A DNA stretch of 64,000 bases from Pseudomonadota bacterium (GTDB lineage Bacteria; Campylobacterota; Campylobacteria; Campylobacterales; Sulfurospirillaceae): assembly GCA_017860615.1 (NCBI GenBank), contig JAGDMU010000008.1, positions 1-64,000 of the forward strand, in the 5' to 3' direction. Below the pieces are notes generated by a model that was not told where the DNA came from, made no database searches, and saw only the letters and a list, made by a program, of their open reading frames with translations. Numbering within the stretch: the stretch's first letter is position 1; each line of letters opens with the position of its first letter. Of this stretch, positions 2,208-12,247 are shown one piece after another. A program made the position numbers and the translations under genes.

Positions 2208-2348
2208 GTTTCCTCCTTTGAAAAATTGAACCTCACATCATTGACGCTTTTTCATGGGCATAAAAAAACATCCATCATGAGAGATCAACCAGCACGAATG
2301 CCTCATTGGAAATACTATCAGGAAAAAAGGGGGGAAAAGGGGGAAGTA

Positions 2349-2365
2349 TTAAATTAGTGTTAAAT
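2349..2365 (-). promoter_or_regulatory. Direct-repeat regulatory site upstream of mccA
   Basis: TTAAATTAGTGTTAAAT on the plus strand: two TTAAAT half-sites 11 bp apart. The same pattern (TTAAATnnGTGTTAAAT) occurs in front of the copper TonB receptor (10721-10737) and in front of exbB (12231-12247). Here it sits about 140 bp upstream of the mccA start, just past the mccS stop. Half-sites spaced by one helical turn are typical of OmpR/PhoB-type regulators; the neighbouring MccR-like protein is the obvious candidate. No -10 box is visible at the spacing seen in the other two promoters. Confidence 0.45.
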
Positions 2366-2372
2366 ATAAAAG

Positions 2373-3788
2373 TTAAAAGATAATCGTAAAGATAACGCCA
2401 TCATCGCTGTTTTCAACACGCAGTGTCGCACCATTTTTTTCAATAATCATTTTGCTCATATAAAGCCCAAGCCCACTACTAGACTCTTTGGTTGTAAAAT
2501 AAGGATCAAAAATTTTTTCAATAATAGCATCATTGATGCGACCTGCATTGTTTTGCAAGGTAATCACAGGTACGCCATTGTCTAAAAAAGCACAAATCTC
2601 AATCTTTCGCTCTTTAATCTCATGTGCTAAAAAAGCCTCCTTGGCATTGTTCATAATATTAATGAGCACTTGCACGATTTCATTCGCATATCCCAAACGT
2701 GTAAAGTTATTTTGGATATCTATGCGCACATCAATGGCGTATTTTTCCAACGATGCACTCAGAAGCTTTTGCGCCCTAAAAATCACTTCTTGCGCGCTAA
2801 ACTCTTTTGCAGAGGTGCTGGGCATGAAAAAGTTTTTAAAATCATCAATGGTGCTTGACATAAACGAGAGCTGTTCGTTCGCCTCTTTGATCTTTTGTGT
2901 TAACTTCTCTTTCGTGAGTTTATCTTTGTCACTGTGCAGTTCAAGATTGATCAAAATGGCGCCTACTTGCGCCAAAGGTTGCCGCCATTGATGCGAAATA
3001 TTGCCGATCATCTCGCCCATCGATGCCAAACGGTTTTGGCTCATCATCAGCATCGTGGTTTTCTCTTTAAGGCGTTGTTCGTTTCTGTAAATTTTATAGA
3101 TAAACAAAATAAAAATAACAAACACAATAAACATGACCGTTCCGCCCACTACAAACTCATTGATGTGGTAGGTTAAGATGCTGTATACTGGGATTTTAAA
3201 CGTTATCATAGCGATGACATCGCCTACTTTACTCTGAAAATCAGGAATCGTATGGTACTGCTCTATCATACGTTTAGGAGCACTGTTCATTGTGTGACAC
3301 TCTAAACAAGAGGGATGAGAGTTATGAATAGGCAGTCCCACAAAAAAGTAAGGCTTGTTGTTCTCTTTAATAATTTGCGAATACTCTTGGTATTTTCCCT
3401 CTTTAAAATCATCCAAAATCTCATTTTCAAAGCCATTACCCTCATGATCGGGATTCAAAGGATTTGTCGCAATGAGTTTATAGTCATAGTTTATATTTTT
3501 TTTAGCCCGTTGGATATTGTAGATTTCACGTGTAATATACGAAGATGAGAGCAATTTAGGATCAAAAAAATCTGCCGCCAAAAGTTTTTTTTCTTTCAAC
3601 TCCTCAATCAAAGGTCGCTGAACGGTTGAAACATAATCGCGAATCGCATTCATCGTATCTAAAATAAAAATCGCCTCTTGTCTGGCATCTTTCATGGCAA
3701 GTTCACGGTAAAAATTAAAAAAAAGCAGTGTAATGACCGCATAAAGCATCACAAAAAGGGCTACGATGATTTTAAAACTATATTTCAC
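2373..3788 (-). CDS. mccS: Haem-c-binding sensor histidine kinase (MccS-like)
   Basis: Membrane sensor kinase of 471 residues. TM1 is at about 5-27; the periplasmic domain resembles DUF3365/Tll0287 sensors and carries one CXXCH site (Cys161-His165, CLECH). TM2 is at about 211-235. The cytoplasmic kinase has the H-box ISHQWRQP (phospho-His about 266), an N-box (INIMNNAKEA) and a G-box (GLGLYM). It overlaps the upstream response regulator by 11 bp and is followed by mccA. In Wolinella a two-component pair, MccRS, controls the mcc operon, so this is probably its sulfite-responsive sensor. The ligand cannot be read from sequence. Confidence 0.8.
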   Translation of the reverse strand: MKYSFKIIVALFVMLYAVITLLFFNFYRELAMKDARQEAIFILDTMNAIRDYVSTVQRPLIEELKEKKLLAADFFDPKLLSSSYITREIYNIQRAKKNINYDYKLIATNPLNPDHEGNGFENEILDDFKEGKYQEYSQIIKENNKPYFFVGLPIHNSHPSCLECHTMNSAPKRMIEQYHTIPDFQSKVGDVIAMITFKIPVYSILTYHINEFVVGGTVMFIVFVIFILFIYKIYRNEQRLKEKTTMLMMSQNRLASMGEMIGNISHQWRQPLAQVGAILINLELHSDKDKLTKEKLTQKIKEANEQLSFMSSTIDDFKNFFMPSTSAKEFSAQEVIFRAQKLLSASLEKYAIDVRIDIQNNFTRLGYANEIVQVLINIMNNAKEAFLAHEIKERKIEICAFLDNGVPVITLQNNAGRINDAIIEKIFDPYFTTKESSSGLGLYMSKMIIEKNGATLRVENSDDGVIFTIIF

Positions 3789-4470
3789 ACACGTACCCTA
3801 CGCCGTAAAGGTTTTTGATAAAATTGTTATCGATTTTTTTACGAAGCTCTTTAACAATCGACTTTAGGGCTTCCTTGCTCGGCTGTTCAAACTCCCACAT
3901 ATAATCAAAAAGCTGCTCATACGTAACCGTTTGATTGGGGCGTTTTAAAAAATACTCTAAAAGCCTGCTCTCACTTTTAGAGAGGTGAACCAATTCACCT
4001 TCTTGGTGGCAAATCGTTTTTTTACAAAAGTCATATTTACATACAGGGGTCACTTGAAACATTGGCATATGCCCAATAAGCTCCATCGCAACATCTTCCA
4101 AGGCTTTAATGAGGGTGTTTTTGTCATAAGGTTTGACCAAATAGCGGGTTATTTTAAGCTCAACTGCTCGCCACAAGTATTCTTGTTCGGTGTGAGCAGA
4201 GAGGATGATGATGGGAATTTTTTTATCAAACTCACGGATTTTCTTTACCACTTCAAGCCCATCCATGTGCGGAATGGAGATGTCTAGCATTAAAACATCA
4301 TACAGATTGCTTTTGGCTTCATCTAACGCTTCTATGCCATCTTTGACACCCACAACTTTGCCAAAAAAAAGCTCTAATGACTCCATAATATTGTTTAAAA
4401 TACAGGCTTCATCTTCCACACAGAGTACTTTTTTATTGGAAAGAACATCTAAAAGATTGCATTCACTCAT
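3778..4470 (-). CDS. mccR: OmpR-family response regulator (MccR-like)
   Basis: Receiver domain at residues about 13-125 with acidic pocket (VEDE), phospho-acceptor D63 (MLDISIPHMDG) and the conserved K113 (LVKPYD), then a C-terminal winged-helix domain (about 155-230). Between them is an unusual cysteine cluster, C144-X4-C149-X4-C154-H, which could respond to metal or redox state. The 11-bp overlap with the kinase gene shows co-expression. It probably binds 11-bp-phased direct repeats such as those at 2349-2365, 10721-10737 and 12231-12247; that link is inference. Confidence 0.8.
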   Translation of the reverse strand: MSECNLLDVLSNKKVLCVEDEACILNNIMESLELFFGKVVGVKDGIEALDEAKSNLYDVLMLDISIPHMDGLEVVKKIREFDKKIPIIILSAHTEQEYLWRAVELKITRYLVKPYDKNTLIKALEDVAMELIGHMPMFQVTPVCKYDFCKKTICHQEGELVHLSKSESRLLEYFLKRPNQTVTYEQLFDYMWEFEQPSKEALKSIVKELRKKIDNNFIKNLYGVGYVCEI

Positions 4471-4637
4471 ATTTTTTTAACCCTATTTCATTAAATTTAA
4501 CGCTTCTTCGTGAATAGAATAACGCATCAAACCTTATAAAATTATTTTCTAAGTAATTCATAAGTTTTAAAAAACTCCCTATGTTATCTTGCGTTTATAA
4601 GCTGTTTTAAAGAGCCAACTCTCTACGTTAGATAGAG

Positions 4638-4733
4638 CCATTTTCTTGCTTTTCAGTACCACTTCTAATAATATCAACTCCGTATTTATCGCGTAGTTGG
4701 GTGGGTGTTATAAAGTTGGAGACAACGAGGCTA
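4638..4733 (-). pseudogene. Remnant of a Y-family DNA polymerase 3' end
   Basis: Translated on the minus strand this gives SNFITPTQ joined directly to LRDKYGVDIIRSGTEKQEN. Both pieces match the C-terminus of the intact polymerase at 5563-6858, but the 25 or so residues between TPTQ and LRDKYG are missing. Nucleotide identity is only moderate, so this is an old paralogous fragment rather than a recent duplication. The rest of 4471-4856 (386 bases between mccR and the next gene) is AT-rich and shows no other supportable gene. Confidence 0.7.
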
Positions 4734-4836
4734 CAAATAAGAATTAAGGGGTTAAGTTACATGAACAGAAGAAAATAAGACATAAGTACATGCTACTTTG
4801 CTTTTACATGTGATTTATTGCTTCATTTCATTAAAG

Positions 4837-4850
4837 TAGCCTGTCCCTAT
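4837..4850. repeat. Short inverted repeat flanking the 4857-5441 gene (left arm)
   Basis: TAGCCTGTCCCTAT here matches the reverse complement of 5470-5483 (TAGCCTGTCCCCAT) at 13 of 14 positions. The two arms bracket the secreted-protein gene almost exactly. They may be boundaries of a mobile or recombined segment; no transposase is present. Confidence 0.4.
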
Positions 4851-4856
4851 GCTCCT

Positions 4857-5441
4857 TTAAGCTTTGTTTTTATAGATACGAATAATAAAATTGACTTTTC
4901 TACCCATCATTTCAGGAAATGCTTCAATATTTTCGATGCGAAAGATATGTCTGCCTTTATCTAAAGAGATAATCGCAATGCCTCTTGTGTATAATCCAGG
5001 GCTATCGCCTTTAGTCATGTAGAGATTATCTGCAATTAGCTTCTTCGTATTGTCTTTATTGATTTGATGTATCGTTACTTTGATAGGAGCAATGGTTCCA
5101 TCGCAATCATACGTTTCATCGATTAAATCGCCTAAGTTTCGCTTTGCTAGTTCATAATCTCCAAATCTCAACTTTTTTCCATCATGCAAGCTATAACTGT
5201 TAAACCCTAGGAATTTTTCTATTTTTCTAGCATCGAATCCGCGATCATGAACTTCAAACTCTAAAAATAAATAATAAGCCCACGCTTCCTCTATCTTCAC
5301 TTCCTTTTCCACCACACTTCCTGCTTGACTGAGGTCAATAGGAATACTAATGGGGTCGGGGTTGCTTCCAAAAAGCAAACTCAACCAACCTGCATGTAAA
5401 AAACTCAGTAGTGCCATGGTGATTACTCCTATTTTTAGCAT
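4857..5441 (-). CDS. Exported protein of unknown function
   Basis: A 194-residue protein with a short N-terminal hydrophobic segment (residues 1-17, ending near LHAGW) that looks like a Sec signal. The body has no transmembrane segment. The pattern of a start motif ISIPIDLSQAGS, central acidic and aromatic segments and a final RHIFRIEN strand gives a beta-rich impression and is loosely like the DUF5625 group; that assignment is weak. The gene lies between a polymerase gene fragment and the intact polymerase gene, and is bracketed by 14-bp inverted repeats, which suggests an inserted cassette. No function is proposed. Confidence 0.6.
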   Translation of the reverse strand: MLKIGVITMALLSFLHAGWLSLLFGSNPDPISIPIDLSQAGSVVEKEVKIEEAWAYYLFLEFEVHDRGFDARKIEKFLGFNSYSLHDGKKLRFGDYELAKRNLGDLIDETYDCDGTIAPIKVTIHQINKDNTKKLIADNLYMTKGDSPGLYTRGIAIISLDKGRHIFRIENIEAFPEMMGRKVNFIIRIYKNKA

Positions 5442-5562
5442 TTGCGTTCCTTTGCAAGAAATAAAGTAAATGGGGACAGGCTATTTTTCACTTTGCAGTA
5501 AGCATTTTAACAAAAGTGTGTCACAGTTTACGTCACAAAAAATATTTTTAGACTTAATTTGA

Positions 5563-6858
5563 CTATTTGTTTTCTTGTTTCTCTGCACCACTTCGGATGA
5601 TATCCACACCATATTTATCACGCAGTTTGGTCAGTTTATCAGACAAGCGTTTGGATTTTTCATCATCTTCTGCATGTAAAAGCGAAAAGGTCTTGGTTTG
5701 GGTTGGGGTTATAAAATTTGAGACGGCAAGGCTGAGATAATGAATGCCATAATGCGGATGTGAATCGAGTGTTTTAAAACTCTGTACCACCCATTCTCGG
5801 TACATAATTTCGCTAAAAGAGCGGTCAATCGTTTGTGAAACTTTAGACGAAATGCCGTTTTCGTATTTAATAGCGAAAAAATAAGTCGTAGGATGCAGAT
5901 CAAGTTTAGCAATGGTATAAGAGAGATGACGTGAGAGGATGATGGTGCGGCGTAGTACCTCATCGCGGTTTGTGATGACATGAAAATTACGTGAAATGCC
6001 GATGGAACGGCGATCTCGTTTGGCGATTACTGGCTCATTATCGACCCCGCTGATGCGCAAGAGCAAATCTTTTCCGATGGTTCCCCAACCTGAGACAAGT
6101 TTTTGGTGTTTTAACACTTCACCCAAAGTTTCAATGCCATAACTGGCAAATTTTTTCTGAAGCACACGCCCGATACCAGGAAAACTTGCAATGGGCATGG
6201 AGGAGATGAAAGCCAGAATCTCATTTTGAGGGACAAGGGTTAGTCCATAAGGTTTGCGAAAATCGGTGGCAAGCTTTGCGATCCATTTAGAACTGGAGGC
6301 ACCAATAGAGATGGGAAGATCAAACGTTTCTAAAATCTCTTTTTGCAAAGAAGCCATAAACGCATACGTATCTTCTTCTTTGATCCAGCCTTTCAGATCA
6401 CCCCAAAACTCATCGATGCTGTACTGCTCTAAGATGGGAATTTTGGTCTGTAAAAAAGCTTTGAGTTTGGTGGAAAGCAGTTGGTAAAAAAGATGATCAC
6501 TGGGGACAATCCGTAGCTTTGGGCACATAGCAAGCGCATCACGAAGAGACGTTCCTGTTTTAATGCCATACTTCTTTGCTTCGTAACTCTTAGCAATCAC
6601 GATGCCATGCACCCTACCTCGCTCATCTAGAAACTCTTTTTTCCATGCATTCTTGTCAAACCCATTAAATACTTTTTTGTGCTGCATCAGCCCATTAAAA
6701 CCGCCCACCGATTCGGTCATCATGCTCTCACTGTCTTGCGTACTAAAGATTTTGGTATCACCGCTTTTGCATACAACAACGGGACAATCCCTTAGTTCAG
6801 GGCTTCTTGTACGCTCCGCCGAGACAAAAAAACAGTCTAAATCCAGATGAATAATCAC
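5563..6858 (-). CDS. Y-family (DinB/UmuC-type) DNA polymerase
   Basis: Translesion DNA polymerase of 431 residues. It carries the family motifs in order: the first catalytic motif DLDCFF at residues 5-10, the finger motif KSYEAKKYGIKTG near 90, the catalytic YSIDEFWGD near 145, then helix-hairpin-helix DNA contacts (SMPIASFPGIGRVL, about 220) and a little-finger domain. The insert after residue 45 (ESMMTESVGGFNGLMQHKK) is typical of bacterial DNA polymerase Y proteins rather than E. coli Pol IV. The start is GTG with AAAGGG upstream. A degraded second copy of its 3' end lies at 4638-4733. Confidence 0.88.
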   Translation of the reverse strand: MIIHLDLDCFFVSAERTRSPELRDCPVVVCKSGDTKIFSTQDSESMMTESVGGFNGLMQHKKVFNGFDKNAWKKEFLDERGRVHGIVIAKSYEAKKYGIKTGTSLRDALAMCPKLRIVPSDHLFYQLLSTKLKAFLQTKIPILEQYSIDEFWGDLKGWIKEEDTYAFMASLQKEILETFDLPISIGASSSKWIAKLATDFRKPYGLTLVPQNEILAFISSMPIASFPGIGRVLQKKFASYGIETLGEVLKHQKLVSGWGTIGKDLLLRISGVDNEPVIAKRDRRSIGISRNFHVITNRDEVLRRTIILSRHLSYTIAKLDLHPTTYFFAIKYENGISSKVSQTIDRSFSEIMYREWVVQSFKTLDSHPHYGIHYLSLAVSNFITPTQTKTFSLLHAEDDEKSKRLSDKLTKLRDKYGVDIIRSGAEKQENK

Positions 6859-6868
6859 GCAAACCCTT

Positions 6869-6880
6869 TTTACATGTAAA
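6869..6880. repeat. Recurrent intergenic palindrome TTTACATGTAAA, copy 2
   Basis: Perfect 12-bp palindrome 10 bases upstream of the Y-polymerase GTG start; as in copy 1, its right half leads into the ribosome-binding site (AAAGGG). The remainder of 6859-7196 holds the small RNA candidate described next and the DedA promoter. Confidence 0.6.
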
Positions 6881-7017
6881 GATAAAAACCAGTATAGAGC
6901 AATTTCAAAAAAAGATTGAAAAGTATTTCGTGCTGAAATATGCCTCTTTTTTTCCTGTTCATGTTTTATTTACTTTAGGTTAATAACACGTTTAATCTAT
7001 TCACCTATACTTTCTTT

Positions 7018-7110
7018 ACCAAGACAATTACCTCCTTTTTGTGTAGAACTCAATCACTTTAAAAGATGCACTCAGATTGCCCGGTCTGAGTGCTTATCTT
7101 TGTTTTCTTC
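7018..7110 (+). ncRNA. Candidate small RNA with terminator hairpin
   Basis: A plausible -10 box TATACT (7006-7011) is followed about 60 bases later by a 9-bp stem (GCACTCAGA 7068-7076 / TCTGAGTGC 7085-7093) and a T-rich tail, a typical intrinsic terminator. The predicted transcript contains ACCTCCTTTTT near 7031, complementary to Shine-Dalgarno sequences. The downstream dedA gene has its own -10-like TAGAAT at 7161, so the hairpin is not needed as part of its leader. No known RNA family is recognised. Confidence 0.35.
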
Positions 7111-7196
7111 TTTTTTTCACTTTTTTTTCTTTTCGTAACCAAAAAAACCTCTCTTTTTTGTAGAATACTGCACTTAAATCAACACAAACGGCACAC

Positions 7197-7769
7197 ATGG
7201 AAGCATTTTTTATCGAAAGTATCAAAGAGTATGGCTATGTTATTCTATTTTTCTGGAGCATTTTGGAAGGAGAGAGCGGTTTAGTCATGGCGGGGTTGTT
7301 AAGCCATACAGGCGATATGAACCTCTTTTTAGCTATTTTCATCGCAGGACTGGGCGGTTTTGCAGGCGATCAGCTCTATTTTTACATTGGACGATTTAAC
7401 AAAAACTACGTTTATCGCAATCTCAAACAACAACGACGTAAACTTGCTCTCGCACATCTGCTACTTAAAAAACATGGCTGGCCGATTATTTTTATACAAC
7501 GTTACTTGTACGGACTTCGCACCATCATCCCTATTGCCATTGGGCTTACAGGCTATAGTGCACAAAAATACGCACTGATTAACCTTATTGCAGCATGGTG
7601 TTGGAGCAGTGTGATTATACTTCCTGTATGGTATTTTGGAGATGCTATTTTAGGTGTGATTACGTGGGCAAAAGAGCATTGGTATATTGCACTTCCTTTC
7701 TTGGGCATACTCGTAGCAAGTGCTTATATCTATTTTCAGAACATGACACAAAAAACAAAACGCCTTTAA
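7197..7769 (+). CDS. DedA-family inner-membrane protein
   Basis: A 190-residue integral membrane protein of the DedA/VTT family, which is linked to lipid carrier recycling, membrane integrity and proton-motive force. The family features are visible: EGESGLVMAG near residue 24, the GD(Q)LYFYIGR motif near 60, and the R-Y-x-x-G-L-R segment followed by IPIAIGLTGYS near 105. Several hydrophobic segments follow, the last at about 165-183. A -10-like TAGAAT lies at 7161. Its stop overlaps the end of the convergent zinc-ribbon gene by 4 bases. Confidence 0.85.
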   Translation: MEAFFIESIKEYGYVILFFWSILEGESGLVMAGLLSHTGDMNLFLAIFIAGLGGFAGDQLYFYIGRFNKNYVYRNLKQQRRKLALAHLLLKKHGWPIIFIQRYLYGLRTIIPIAIGLTGYSAQKYALINLIAAWCWSSVIILPVWYFGDAILGVITWAKEHWYIALPFLGILVASAYIYFQNMTQKTKRL

Positions 7770-8116
7770 ACCACTTTTTTTAAAAAGGCACTTCCACAAC
7801 GCGGGCAGTTTCCATCCCATTCCAAAAGATGATTTCCGTGACATTGATGACAGGAAGGTTTTTGCAAAAGCTTAGGAACAAGCAAGGAAGGGTTGTGTTT
7901 ACGCCCTTTGGATACAAAATGTTTTACATGCAACCATAAAACTTTAAGAGCTTGAAGAAAAAGTCGTTTTGGGTGAGGCTTTTCTTGTAAGTGACGGCAC
8001 TCAAGGCAGACCATCCACTTTTTTTGCAAACTCATATGACGATACGTTCGAGCGAGTGTGATATGCTCTGTTTCATAACTACAAAGAGGGCATAACAGAT
8101 AATATTTTGCTTCCAT
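7766..8116 (-). CDS. Zinc-ribbon protein of unknown function
   Basis: A 116-residue protein with four CXXC knuckles in order: CPLC, CLEC, CHQC and CPRC, arranged as two zinc ribbons (N-terminal and C-terminal) separated by a basic helical stretch (RLFLQALKVLWLHVKHFV). The ATG at 8116 is chosen because AAAGGAGA precedes it; an upstream in-frame ATG at 8218 would start inside the terminal repeat of the palindromic element at 8205-8369 and has no ribosome site. Function unknown; a structural or nucleic-acid-binding role is possible. Confidence 0.7.
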   Translation of the reverse strand: MEAKYYLLCPLCSYETEHITLARTYRHMSLQKKWMVCLECRHLQEKPHPKRLFLQALKVLWLHVKHFVSKGRKHNPSLLVPKLLQKPSCHQCHGNHLLEWDGNCPRCGSAFLKKVV

Positions 8117-8204
8117 AAAGTCTCCTTTACAAGCTATCCCTGCTTCTAAAAAGTAGTGTAGCACAAAAAGGTTAAAGCATTTTAAATTCCATAATTTTAT
8201 AAAA

Positions 8205-8369
8205 TAGACTTCTTCCATAACCCTTGAAAAGAATAAGAGTTTGTCGAGAGTGCGTTAATTTTTTAAACTCAAAATTGAGTCATAGCCAAAGCTATGGCGA
8301 TGTTTTTAGTTTAAAAAAGTGATGTGCTATAGACGCACTCTTTTTTCAATGGGTTATGAAAGAAGTCTA
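8205..8369. mobile_element. Palindromic MITE-like element (165 bp)
   Basis: Terminal inverted repeats of 19 bp (8205-8223 and 8351-8369, 18 of 19 matching, TAGACTTCTT then CATAACCC) bound a segment that is itself an imperfect palindrome: GAGTGCGT/ACGCACTC arms, TTTTTTAAACT arms, and a central CATAGC-CAAA-GCTATG hairpin. The ends start with TA, consistent with a TA target duplication. There is no coding capacity. This is the form expected of a non-autonomous miniature inverted-repeat element; the parent transposase is not in the window. Confidence 0.6.
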
Positions 8370-8409
8370 ATATGTCGATATAGGTATAGCTCTTTAGAAG
8401 GAGTAGCCC

Positions 8410-8598
8410 ATGGACGCACTAAGCGCAAGTAGCCCAGCGAGTTCGGGAGTTTCTGCGCTGAAAAAAGCAACAAATGTTCAAGAAGAGGTTATCACTAAAT
8501 TGATGGAATCTCTTCCAAAACCTGAAGTTGCCCAAACAGCACAAGTCTCAGGACTCGCATCAGAGGGTATCGGGTCAAACCTTGATCTCAAGGCTTAA
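8410..8598 (+). CDS. Small YjfB-like putative motility protein
   Basis: A 62-residue protein with GAAGGAG seven bases before the ATG. The N-terminal part (SSGVSALKKATNVQEEVITKLMESLP) matches the layout of the YjfB-like putative motility proteins: a short Ser-rich start, a VLKKA-type motif, then an amphipathic helix ending in LxxSLP. No signal peptide or membrane segment is present. It stands alone between a MITE-like element and a hairpin, so neighbours give no extra clue. The family assignment is by eye and tentative. Confidence 0.6.
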   Translation: MDALSASSPASSGVSALKKATNVQEEVITKLMESLPKPEVAQTAQVSGLASEGIGSNLDLKA

Positions 8599-8607
8599 CC
8601 CAAAGCA

Positions 8608-8631
8608 GAGATAACCCAAAAGGGTTATCTC
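8608..8631 (+). terminator. Hairpin after the YjfB-like gene
   Basis: Perfect 10-bp stem GAGATAACCC / GGGTTATCTC with an AAAA loop, 9 bases after the stop codon. No T tract follows on the plus strand, so it may be a weak terminator. The convergent copper-receptor gene ends at 8696. Confidence 0.5.
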
Positions 8632-8695
8632 ATAGCATTAGAGTTCAGTACAGAACGTTTAAGACGTTTTGGAAGAAGTCGCTTCCATATAAACC

Positions 8696-10678
8696 TTAGA
8701 ACGTATAACGAAGGTTAGCGTAAAGGTAACGCCCTGGCTCATTAATCAACACAACATCGCCACCACCTGAGAGAAGTGAAATGTCTCTGTACGTGTTGGA
8801 AAGCGCATACTTTTTATCAAAGATATTATCAACGCCCAGTGTCACATCCACATTTTTAGTGACTTTATAATTGTATTTCACATTAAAGACCGCATAACCT
8901 GGAATTTCTTGCTCTCCATTGTCACTATCGTAGTTATTCCATCGTTTTGCTGCGACCATTTCGGTTTTGATGCTGTGCTCTGCAAAATGGTATCTTAACC
9001 CAAGATTGGCTTTTAGAGGAACAATGTCGGCTAAGTCTTTATCGCTCTGACCCGCAAGTGGTTCATCTTTTTTCCCTTTAAGATAGGTCATTCCATAATC
9101 CAACGTAAGTGTCTCACTCAGATCATAATAAGCATCTAATTCTGCTCCATAAATCACTGCATCCACATTGACATACTTTGCAGAGTTGTAGTAGATATAA
9201 TCTTTTAAAACACTGTAAAACACTTTACCATTCACACCAAATCCATCATAATGGGTTTTAAATCCAATATCTGTTTCGTAATTGGTTGTTTGATCGACAT
9301 TGCCTAAAGCGTTTGTTCCTCTGTAAAGCTCTTTGGCATCAGGCACACGGGATGCTTTTCCCAAACCAATAAAATAATCAACGCTATCACTTGCTCGTAG
9401 TGTTGCAATGGTATAAAAAGAGAGTGCTTCATAATCGTTTTTATCTCTTACCCCTACGGCAACAGGAGCATTTGCTTTGATGGTAGTGTCATCATAACGA
9501 CTTCCTACTTGTATGTTTACATTCTCAATATTGGTATTGTACTTAGCAAATAGCGCCCTATTGGTAGTGTCAACATCGGGTAAATTAGAGGTATGCGCCC
9601 CTTCGATTCCTGTGGCAACATTAGTCATGTAACTCTCACCATCCCAATTACGCCTGCTTATATCTACTCCGTATGTTAACTCTCCACTACCAACATTGGC
9701 AACATTTTTCAGCTTTGCACCTTCCATATCGGTGTACATCTTCGCTGTCATGTAATTGGTTGCGCCTGCTACTCTATTTTTGGTGGACATAGGATGTGTA
9801 ACCTCTGACTTATAGACCTCCAAGCTTACCTCTTTTGAGTAAGGTGAAAGATCGTAAAGACTGTACCCAAAGGTAAAAATATCGCTATCATCATAATCTG
9901 CATCCATGCTTCGTGATGGATACAAAACATTATCGCTACGATTGAGTGTGTAGCCTAAACGTATCTCTTGATTCTCCACAGGATTGATAAAAACTTTGCC
10001 CATAAAGGTTTTTTTCTCATAGGCTTTAAGATCCGGGTTGATGTAACGGTTACCCGCAACACCCATGCCCTGCGCGATGGCATTGTTTAGCTGATCCGAT
10101 AAGGTATTGCCATCACCATCTTTATATTGATCGCTCTGCTCTGTAGAAGCACTCAACAATACTCTTACAGTATCGTTTCCACCACTTGCACTTGCACTGG
10201 CTTTTTTATACCCATAACTTCCCATATTTAGGTTAACATCACCGCTTACTTCTTTGGTCGGATTTTTGGTCTCGGCGATAATCATACCGCTGAGTGTTCC
10301 AAAATGCTCGACATCATACGGACCTTCGACAATTTTGACATTTTCGACATTATCACTGTGAATATGTGAAAGTGCGGGATCCATCCTATTTGGGCAGCCT
10401 CCATATACTTTGGATTCATCCATTAAGATGTTGATATTATCGCGTTTTTGCCCGCGTAAGAGAATATCATTTGCAACACCGCTTCCCCTGATGATCGAGA
10501 TAGAAGCATTTTGACGTGAAAGAGCTTCCGCAAGATCTGCTGATCTAAGATCTTCTCCACTGATATCTTTAACCTCTTTCGAAAAGGTCTCACCTTGAAC
10601 AGTAATGGCTTCTAAAACGCCCGTTTCAGCCATTAAAAATGTCGATACGACTAACGAAACACCCATGACTTTTTTCAT
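8696..10678 (-). CDS. TonB-dependent copper receptor (OprC/NosA-like)
   Basis: Outer-membrane beta-barrel of 660 residues with a signal peptide (1-17) and a plug domain containing ISGEDLRSADLAEALSR and the RGQKRDNINILMD stretch. The plug carries GGCPNRMDPALSHIHS, closely matching the conserved GGCPN-MDP segment of OprC/NosA copper receptors; this includes the CxxxM copper-binding motif. The C-terminus ends in YLYANLRYTF, as in TonB receptors. The gene is followed upstream by its own exbB-exbD-tonB set. It probably brings copper into the periplasm, where the mccA-type sulfite reductase in this window needs Cu(I). Confidence 0.85.
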   Translation of the reverse strand: MKKVMGVSLVVSTFLMAETGVLEAITVQGETFSKEVKDISGEDLRSADLAEALSRQNASISIIRGSGVANDILLRGQKRDNINILMDESKVYGGCPNRMDPALSHIHSDNVENVKIVEGPYDVEHFGTLSGMIIAETKNPTKEVSGDVNLNMGSYGYKKASASASGGNDTVRVLLSASTEQSDQYKDGDGNTLSDQLNNAIAQGMGVAGNRYINPDLKAYEKKTFMGKVFINPVENQEIRLGYTLNRSDNVLYPSRSMDADYDDSDIFTFGYSLYDLSPYSKEVSLEVYKSEVTHPMSTKNRVAGATNYMTAKMYTDMEGAKLKNVANVGSGELTYGVDISRRNWDGESYMTNVATGIEGAHTSNLPDVDTTNRALFAKYNTNIENVNIQVGSRYDDTTIKANAPVAVGVRDKNDYEALSFYTIATLRASDSVDYFIGLGKASRVPDAKELYRGTNALGNVDQTTNYETDIGFKTHYDGFGVNGKVFYSVLKDYIYYNSAKYVNVDAVIYGAELDAYYDLSETLTLDYGMTYLKGKKDEPLAGQSDKDLADIVPLKANLGLRYHFAEHSIKTEMVAAKRWNNYDSDNGEQEIPGYAVFNVKYNYKVTKNVDVTLGVDNIFDKKYALSNTYRDISLLSGGGDVVLINEPGRYLYANLRYTF

Positions 10679-10703
10679 ACACTCTCCCTTTTAATAAGCG
10701 GTG

Positions 10704-10758
10704 AGTATAAAAAGGCTCTGTTAAATACGTGTTAAATTTGTATCAAATTAATGTTAAA
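10704..10758 (-). promoter_or_regulatory. Promoter of the copper receptor with four 11-bp direct repeats
   Basis: On the minus strand, four units start exactly 11 bp apart: GTTTAACATTA, ATTTGATACAA, ATTTAACACGT, ATTTAACAGAG. They are followed after about 10 bases by a -10 box TATACT (10704-10709). The two proximal units match the sites upstream of mccA and exbB. This is the PhoB/OmpR activator layout, in which the repeats replace the -35 element. Confidence 0.55.
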
Positions 10759-10760
10759 CA

Positions 10761-11414
10761 CTATTTCATTATATAAATGATGGGGATTTTTATCGTCACA
10801 TTTTCCAAAGGATGTGGAAAGTGTGCTTTGGCTTTATGCACACTCTCTATGGCAGCGGTACTTAAAAGCTTGCTTTTGGAGATCGCATCTACATCTTCTA
10901 CTTCACCCGTAGGCTTAATGGTAAAACTCACTTCCACAACACCTTCAATGGAGCGCTTTCTTGCAAGCTCAGGGTAACTCTTAGCTCTTTGGAGTGCTTC
11001 AACAATTTCATCTTTATGCAGTTCCAGATAAGACGGCTTTTCTGCTTGGGATACGCTCATTTCTAGTGGATTTGTTTGAGGTAATGTTACTTCATCAGGT
11101 AAAGAGGCATTATTATCTGCAAAAACCTGCACCGAAGATGGTTTGGATAGCTTCTCTTTCTTTGGGTTTTTCTTCAAAGGAGCTAATTCATGGGCTATTT
11201 GAGGCAATGGCTCTTTGAGGGGAACTTCATCACTCGTGGGTGAAAAATGATGCTCTGGCTCCTCTATCTTCGCAACCACCGTATTGATACGAAGGGAAAC
11301 GGGACTCTTTGGTGTTGAAGGTTTTTCTTTTTCAGCCATCTCATCATACAAAAAAGCGAGCATAGAAAGATGCAACATCAAAGAGAGCAGTAAAGAAAAC
11401 GTCGTTCGTCTCAT
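10761..11414 (-). CDS. tonB: TonB energy-transducing protein (copper receptor system)
   Basis: A 217-residue TonB with an N-terminal membrane anchor (residues 6-21), a proline/lysine-rich periplasmic linker (KEKPSTPKSP and onward) and a C-terminal TonB domain (about 140-217) with YPELARKRSIEGVVEVSFTI and the final IKIPIIYIMK strand. It overlaps exbD by 4 bases and precedes the copper receptor, which it presumably energises using the ExbBD proton channel. The plus-strand reading frame at 10777-10977 is a shadow. Confidence 0.9.
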   Translation of the reverse strand: MRRTTFSLLLSLMLHLSMLAFLYDEMAEKEKPSTPKSPVSLRINTVVAKIEEPEHHFSPTSDEVPLKEPLPQIAHELAPLKKNPKKEKLSKPSSVQVFADNNASLPDEVTLPQTNPLEMSVSQAEKPSYLELHKDEIVEALQRAKSYPELARKRSIEGVVEVSFTIKPTGEVEDVDAISKSKLLSTAAIESVHKAKAHFPHPLENVTIKIPIIYIMK

Positions 11415-11782
11415 TTTTCGATAACAATGTCTATGTTGCGAAATTGGCGTGTATTGAGCGTATCCAAAAGAGTTACAAAAAAATCAAAAGGGGCTTTTTT
11501 ATCGCAGTTGATTGAAAAATGCGTCTGAGACGTCAATGTTTTTAAATGTTCATTCAAGCGCTCATGCGTTATGGGTTCTTGCTCTAAAAAAAGCGTTCCT
11601 TGTTCATTGATGCTTATGACCACATTGGAAGATTCCATCTTTTCATTGGAAGCAGATTTGGGTACATCAAGAGGCAAGATGCCTTTGGCAATAAAGGTGG
11701 ATGTCAGAAGAACAATTGTCAATAAAACAAGCAAAATATCGACAAAAGGGATGACGTTGATGCTATCAAACTTCTTCATCAA
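11411..11782 (-). CDS. exbD: ExbD proton-channel subunit
   Basis: A 123-residue protein with a cytoplasmic start (KKFDSINVIPFVDI), a single membrane helix (residues about 11-30) containing the catalytic Asp of the VDILLVLLTI motif, and a periplasmic domain. It works with ExbB to harvest proton-motive force for TonB. It overlaps exbB by 17 bases and tonB by 4, showing a translationally coupled exbB-exbD-tonB operon. Confidence 0.9.
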   Translation of the reverse strand: MMKKFDSINVIPFVDILLVLLTIVLLTSTFIAKGILPLDVPKSASNEKMESSNVVISINEQGTLFLEQEPITHERLNEHLKTLTSQTHFSINCDKKAPFDFFVTLLDTLNTRQFRNIDIVIEK

Positions 11783-12182
11783 ACACTGCTAAGAATCGTT
11801 CAGAGTAACGCACTAAAATGTTGTTAAACACCATGGAGAGAATCGCAACAACCAGTCCAATAGCAGTTGTTTTAAGCGCAAGCGCTAAAGAGCTCATAAT
11901 TTTTGACGTTTCAATGCTCTGTTCTGACATATTCATAAAGGTAAGCATAATGGCAAGAACTGTGCCTAAAAGCCCAATATAAGGGGCATTGGATGTGATA
12001 GTGGCGATGGTAGTGAGATGGTTGCTGAGTGCAATTTCAAGTGATTTTTTGGTTTTGTAGTGGCTAAGTTCAAGCGATTTATAGAAGAAAACTCTCTCGA
12101 CAAATAACCCTAAAGAGACGATGCTCATCGCAAAAAGTAGCCCTATAATGCCATAATCAATCGCAAATTTTAGATATTCCAC
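11766..12182 (-). CDS. exbB: ExbB proton-channel subunit
   Basis: A 138-residue MotA/TolQ/ExbB protein with three hydrophobic segments (about 9-28, 62-85, 100-123) and the family motif TITSNAPYIGLLGTVLAIM. The start is GTG with GGAGAAGG before it. First gene of the exbB-exbD-tonB operon; its promoter region carries the same direct repeat as the copper receptor gene, implying that receptor and energy supply are co-regulated. Confidence 0.9.
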   Translation of the reverse strand: MEYLKFAIDYGIIGLLFAMSIVSLGLFVERVFFYKSLELSHYKTKKSLEIALSNHLTTIATITSNAPYIGLLGTVLAIMLTFMNMSEQSIETSKIMSSLALALKTTAIGLVVAILSMVFNNILVRYSERFLAVFDEEV

Positions 12183-12190
12183 ACCTTCTC

Positions 12191-12247
12191 CTCACCCCTC
12201 ATTTTAAGGGGTGAGTGTATAAAGCATGTATTAAATTTGTGTTAAAT
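12191..12247 (-). promoter_or_regulatory. exbB promoter: direct repeat, -10 box and 9-bp inverted repeat
   Basis: TTAAATTTGTGTTAAAT (12231-12247) matches the repeats before mccA and the copper receptor. On the minus strand it is followed 9 bases later by TATACA (12216-12221), then by the inverted repeat CTCACCCCT (12191-12199) / AGGGGTGAG (12207-12215), which lies at the likely transcription start and could be an operator or a leader hairpin just before the ribosome-binding site. Confidence 0.5.

Follow-up and report, generated by a model that had tools for sequence, protein, structure and literature searches.

Copper two-component systems are mostly tied to resistance. Here we describe a short direct repeat, TTTAACA-N4-TTTAAYA, that appears to mark a set of genes for copper acquisition. 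It recurs in a 64,000-nucleotide stretch of a Sulfurospirillaceae genome (the window; contig JAGDMU010000008.1) upstream of mccA, which encodes an octaheme copper sulfite reductase, of a TonB-dependent copper receptor gene, and of exbB. A related layout is known from Helicobacter pylori, where the consensus of the OmpR-family protein HP1043 (HsrA) is TTTAAG-N5-TTTAAG, with centers 11 bp apart, at promoters lacking a −35 box (PMC5253667). In both cases, two TTTAA-type hexamers on the coding strand take the place of the −35 box. HP1043, however, combines TTTAAG with housekeeping targets, whereas TTTAACA precedes copper genes here; moreover, HP1043 is an orphan with a degenerate receiver, while the regulator favored below, RR184, has a kinase partner. 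H. pylori CrdRS is a Campylobacterota two-component system linked to copper in the literature; the targets listed for it include urease, acetone carboxylase, and hofD, and the same paper gives no binding motif (PMC9927306).

On the import side, the receptor of the window is a relative of OprC from the Pseudomonas OprC/NosA system. Its CPNRM motif aligns to OprC Cys143 and Met147, two of the four described copper ligands (PMC8610252), and an HPM motif further on (residues 295 to 297) falls outside that alignment. Different from OprC/NosA are its own exbB-exbD-tonB operon, a double-NosL chaperone, and, in relatives, a dedicated two-component regulator nearby. Bordetella crtA (bfrG) likewise links TonB-dependent copper import to the function of a respiratory copper oxidase, and exbBD-tonB and PCuAC genes are sometimes found close to it, but control is exerted posttranscriptionally by CruR and not by a two-component system (PMC12914433). 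Finally, the mcc locus resembles that of Wolinella, with an MccA ortholog of 4rkm and an adjacent kinase-regulator pair, and differs by a distal TTTAACA pair that is added in Sulfurospirillum and missing from the mccA promoters of Campylobacter and S. arcachonense. The open literature searched, with subscription papers outside its scope, yielded no described MccR operator and no described Campylobacterota copper-uptake regulator.

We propose, with a probability of about 0.72, that the repeat is the operator of RR184, a copper-acquisition regulator of the OmpR/PhoB family, and not of MccR, and that the regulon includes the cuproenzyme genes mccA and ccoN. The starting point was a 17-mer, ATTTAACAC-NN-ATTTAA in gene orientation, which the initial annotation had placed upstream of mccA, the receptor gene, and exbB, all on the minus strand. 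These three perfect copies (2349-2365, 10721-10737, and 12231-12247) are exactly as it listed them. With up to two mismatches, the window holds five matches against 0.64 expected, a number reached by none of 100 shuffles. Genome-wide pattern searches, compared with an order-3 Markov model trained on 257 kb of the genome, gave five perfect 17-mers in 2.79 Mb (0.028 expected) and four perfect TTTAACA-N4-TTTAAYA pairs (0.34 expected), so that the random genome-wide occurrence that would have undone the proposed link was not what we found. When the pair is extended by N9 and a TAYACT −10 box, three perfect sites are left, at the receptor, exbB, and nosL, against 0.00015 expected. Chance occurrence was thus rejected by shuffles, Markov model, and reversed-pattern controls. 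In a degenerate scan of the genome with up to three mismatches, 35 matches compare with 24 for the reversed control; only those with zero or one mismatch look meaningful, and weaker matches were therefore discarded.

Two copies on other contigs, invisible in the window, alter the meaning of the repeat. The fourth perfect pair (C27:248270) stands 62 bp before a gene for a 378-amino-acid protein with two NosL domains, and the fifth 17-mer precedes ccoN, the gene for the catalytic subunit of the cbb3-type heme-copper oxidase (PMC8267372). NosL is a Cu(I) chaperone of denitrifiers (PMC6530538). Across the genus, 24 genomes together hold 56 perfect 17-mers, compared with 1 for the reversed pattern, and all 56 lie before ccoN (22), nosL (14), mccA (7), exbB (5), an FTR1-type permease gene (4), the copper receptor gene (3), or another TonB receptor gene (1); the assignments were made by reading loci or by matching coordinates to known gene positions, several by coordinate only. 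The permease was identified by Pfam FTR1; in Campylobacter jejuni, the partner of an FTR1-type permease is P19, which PMC8267372 counts among the periplasmic proteins that contain copper. At the permease promoters of four species (L428, L429, L430, and L438), the perfect 17-mer is located upstream of a Fur-box-like sequence. The full architecture, searched with at most one mismatch in 200 genomes of the order, returned about 55 matches in 37 genomes, compared with 5 for the reversed control. Among 46 distinct readable sites, 32 precede NosL, TonB receptor/ExbB/TonB, PCuAC, DsbD_2, or RR184-type genes, a tally in which not every TonB receptor is proven to carry copper. A further perfect full-architecture site in this genome, with ATTAACA as its second arm, lies before a gene for a small DUF1104/Metal_resist-like secreted protein (G000:C6:122907-122939; L131:9908).

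At the receptor, exbB, and nosL promoters, the two repeats, 11 bp apart, occupy the place of the −35 box, 16 bp start to start before the −10 box; a −35 element would be dispensable there because the second repeat fills its position. In the window, pattern searches place the exbB pair (TTTAACA-N4-TTTAATA) at 12229-12246, ahead of a TACACT −10 box read at 12214-12219, all on the minus strand. At the receptor, pattern reading gives four minus-strand repeats (10719-10758), as first annotated, with starts exactly 11 bp apart (10752-10758, 10741-10747, 10730-10736, and 10719-10725) ahead of a TATACT −10 box read at 10704-10709; the second copy is an imperfect TTTGATA. They form a proximal pair (10719-10736) and a second one (10741-10758). 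Four repeats are also found in four other species, the remaining ones having mostly two, and in 15 aligned receptor promoters of the genus only the proximal pair, retained in 15 of 15, and the −10 box (TAtAcT) are conserved between diverged flanks. Head-to-tail repeats with an 11-bp period are common to the receptor, exbB, nosL, mccA, and ccoN. The OmpR/PhoB-type layout that had been suggested for the repeat is supported; at mccA, however, the pair (TTTAACA-N4-TTTAATA, 2347-2364, minus strand, by pattern search) lies about 20 bp upstream of the −35 position. The ccoN pair is similarly far upstream of its TATAAT box, in 20 of 20 readable promoters.

Between the distal pair and the mccA start, a second, different tandem repeat, CCCCCTTTT-n-CCCTTTTT (also referred to as the CCCCTTTT repeat or CCCC box), abuts a predicted extended −10 element in all 13 readable Sulfurospirillum promoters and in Campylobacter. 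In the window it reads CCCCCTTTTCCCCCCTTTTTT (2323-2343, minus strand) with an 11-bp period, and the −10 element (TG-A-TAGTAT, 2312-2320, minus strand) follows a TGnTAnnAT pattern conserved across mccA promoters. The TTTAACA-type pair is present in the same 13 of 13 promoters, always 21 bp from the second repeat although the spacer letters vary, so that four repeats stand together in near-continuous 11-bp steps. This second repeat is likely the better candidate for the MccR box, with the TTTAACA pair as a second input, since it is kept in Campylobacter and S. arcachonense mccA promoters, where the TTTAACA pair is absent; since its perfect matches in the genus (0.008 expected per genome) are almost all at mccA; and since it is absent from the copper promoters of the window.

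The case for RR184 comes from the loci around motif matches, read across the 200 genomes of the order. RR184 is an OmpR-type response regulator encoded, in this genome, after pyrC on another contig than the window (G000:C29:50975-51637), with the gene for a short histidine kinase, HK184, just downstream. In five families besides the window's own, its gene shares an operon with, or stands beside, motif-bearing copper genes. One family (G077 and relatives) has the order pyrC-RR-HK-exbB-exbD-tonB-nosL, and several clusters of this type carry sites, both in the gap that separates the kinase gene from exbB and ahead of nosL or a TonB receptor gene. Elsewhere, a perfect site precedes the regulator gene itself, followed by the copper receptor, exbB, and exbD (G028); a one-mismatch site follows the kinase gene, before the receptor and exbB-exbD-tonB (G165); or the regulator-kinase pair adjoins nosL (G042). 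When 53 regulators were placed in a tree, a single 100/99 clade took in every copper-linked one and just one from this genome, and MccR fell elsewhere. The recognition helix of this clade, RVYINNLKK, is nearly invariant across families, in keeping with a motif that is itself conserved among them. The clade also holds orthologs with no copper genes nearby (e.g., L302 to L307 and L310 to L312), and phylogenetic co-occurrence of RR184 and motif is uninformative, because 170 of the 200 genomes have a match at the threshold used.

The sequences show the sites, how they are spaced and conserved, their confinement to copper-related genes, and the linkage of RR184 to them; we infer that the protein binds this DNA, that it activates and does not repress (an inference above all at mccA and ccoN), and what the signal is. 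Once phosphorylated, RR184 would occupy the 11-bp-spaced TTTAACA repeats head to tail, bring RNA polymerase to promoters devoid of a −35 box, and thereby switch on the copper receptor, exbB-exbD-tonB, and the double-NosL chaperone. The same pair would have been added in Sulfurospirillum further upstream, roughly helically matched, at the mccA and ccoN promoters, at mccA directly behind the repeat taken as the MccR box. Two inputs would then meet at sulfite reductase, with MccR conveying sulfite or redox state and RR184 conveying copper status or demand, and the supply of copper and the synthesis of copper enzymes seem to be under joint control. That mccA is tied to copper supply by the repeat, as originally suggested, is borne out by the shared site.

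Several points weigh against this interpretation. Among the order-wide sites, 14 of 46 precede genes with no known copper link, HtrA-like protease genes and secG among them; the latter two may instead reflect related sites of other OmpR-type regulators. HtrA/DegP-like protease genes of another family (L026, L029, and L030) have related TTTAA-type repeats and TATACT promoters. In Sulfurospirillum, RR184 adjoins none of the sites. The partner kinases of the RR184 clade have two membrane helices, a short loop, and no sensor domain, and copper sensing is not evident, because HK184 has neither such a domain nor conserved Cys, Met, or His residues in its membrane part. The ccoN promoter is conserved throughout, the surroundings of the site included, so that conservation does not single this site out. 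A paralog, RR180, could also share or own the motif, as considered below. Moreover, a response to copper starvation alone would hardly be expected to move mccA and ccoN in step with copper import, which leaves two options: a signal closer to demand, or upstream sites at mccA and ccoN that hold these genes back instead of activating them.

In the latter, copper-sparing variant, the same regulator would activate the importers when copper is short and repress or restrain mccA and ccoN from the upstream site. In its favor, the repeats of these two promoters are set about 20 bp farther upstream than those of the import genes, and at mccA they run straight up to the presumed MccR box. Ordinary activator sites, however, also occupy such upstream positions, and the shift leaves the helical phase almost unchanged; the sequence itself does not tell activation from repression. 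We consider this variant unlikely, if the best placed of the alternatives.

Somewhat less probable is that RR180 (G000:C29:27493), a paralogous response regulator of a related subfamily, is the binder, alone or with RR184. It could share or own the motif because its recognition helix, RTYIKNLRK, is related, because a near-match site, TTTAACATTAAATTAACA, is found near its cluster, and because its ortholog L147_8 faces a promoter with a double TTTAACA site before a DsbD_2 gene. Unlike RR184, RR180 showed no linkage to exbB/tonB/nosL/receptor operons, and ATTAACA tends to be the second arm of the sites in its vicinity. Its kinase, HK180, has a larger N-terminal part, and c-type cytochromes are encoded nearby. 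Close to RR180/HK180, a near-match site also precedes a gene pair weakly similar to cytochrome bd oxidase (G000:C29:25481-25513; L133:9497).

In the initial annotation, the plausible reading was that MccR acts at the TTTAACA repeat to activate sulfite reductase jointly with copper supply. MccR is of the OmpR type and is encoded two genes from one of the sites, and the repeat does recur in other mcc-bearing Campylobacterota, being kept at all 13 readable Sulfurospirillum mccA promoters. This distribution stops short of Campylobacter and S. arcachonense, although an MccR operator should occur wherever mccA and mccR do; Campylobacter mccA promoters keep the other repeat beside the −10 box instead, and copper promoters are devoid of it. 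Conversely, Sulfurospirillum genomes in which no mccA was detected (e.g., G020, G207, G209, G210, and G211) still have TTTAACA sites ahead of copper genes. Furthermore, the regulator gene that accompanies the sites in other families is not mccR, and the MccR recognition helix (LKSIVKELRKK) differs from that of the RR184 clade. MccR is thus probably not the regulator that binds TTTAACA, and its joint activation of both gene sets was not supported on comparative grounds; we regard that model as improbable. Separately, a response regulator encoded just upstream of ccoN (L130) was rejected as the binder, BLAST placing it as MccR-like and unlike the copper-linked regulators. Ownership of the sites by the phylum's housekeeping OmpR-type regulator (HsrA/HP1043, CosR) appears very improbable: the published TTTAAG-N5-TTTAAG shares period and position (PMC5253667) and a related repeat occurs at secG promoters, but the consensus here is TTTAACA-N4-TTTAACA, with C instead of G as the sixth base followed by A, and the 17-mer is restricted to copper-related and not translation genes. 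The secG promoters in question, from two families (G000:C12:24849; L149), combine a related TTTAA-type repeat with a −10 box, possibly an HsrA/CosR-type site.

The genes concerned lie on the minus strand of the window. MccA (138-2207) matches Wolinella MccA over its full length (4rkm/4rkn, phmmer E value of 0, 688 residues), with seven CXXCH motifs and one CX15CH-type heme motif. The window begins at the end of contig C28, and the gene after mccA is truncated just past its start (1-60). Upstream of mccA are genes for an mccS-like histidine kinase with a Tll0287-like sensor domain (2373-3788, Pfam) and for the mccR-like OmpR-type regulator (3778-4470, Pfam Response_reg and Trans_reg_C); the kinase may be a heme c sensor, since its periplasmic Tll0287-like domain contains a CXXCH motif (CLECH, residue 161). 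OprC is the best solved relative of the receptor (8696-10678; 2e-30). As the receptor scores below the cutoff of the NCBIfam equivalog TIGR01778 for TonB-dependent copper receptors (206 bits versus 472), its copper assignment comes from the ligand motif and gene company. It is preceded by tonB (10761-11414, Pfam TonB_C), exbD (11411-11782, Pfam ExbD), and exbB (11766-12182, Pfam MotA_ExbB; just below the NCBIfam exbB2 cutoff).

Taken more broadly, and at somewhat less than even odds, these data would describe a widespread Campylobacterota two-component system new to the literature, whose two-helix membrane kinase would sense the status of copper or the demand for it with no sensor domain. Import, periplasmic copper chaperones, and cuproenzymes (sulfite reductase, cbb3 oxidase, and, in a subset of species, an FTR1-type iron permease) would make up a single regulon under its control, with the boxes of two systems stacked at mccA in matching helical phase. 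The short motif lends itself to testing and to predicting the regulon in dozens of genomes, and the candidate MccR operator would make the control of respiratory sulfite reduction directly testable. If our interpretation is correct, a positive-looking two-component copper-acquisition regulon would reach as far as copper-dependent respiratory enzymes, showing how Campylobacterota that live as microaerophiles or anaerobes bring their copper supply into line with the synthesis of enzymes.

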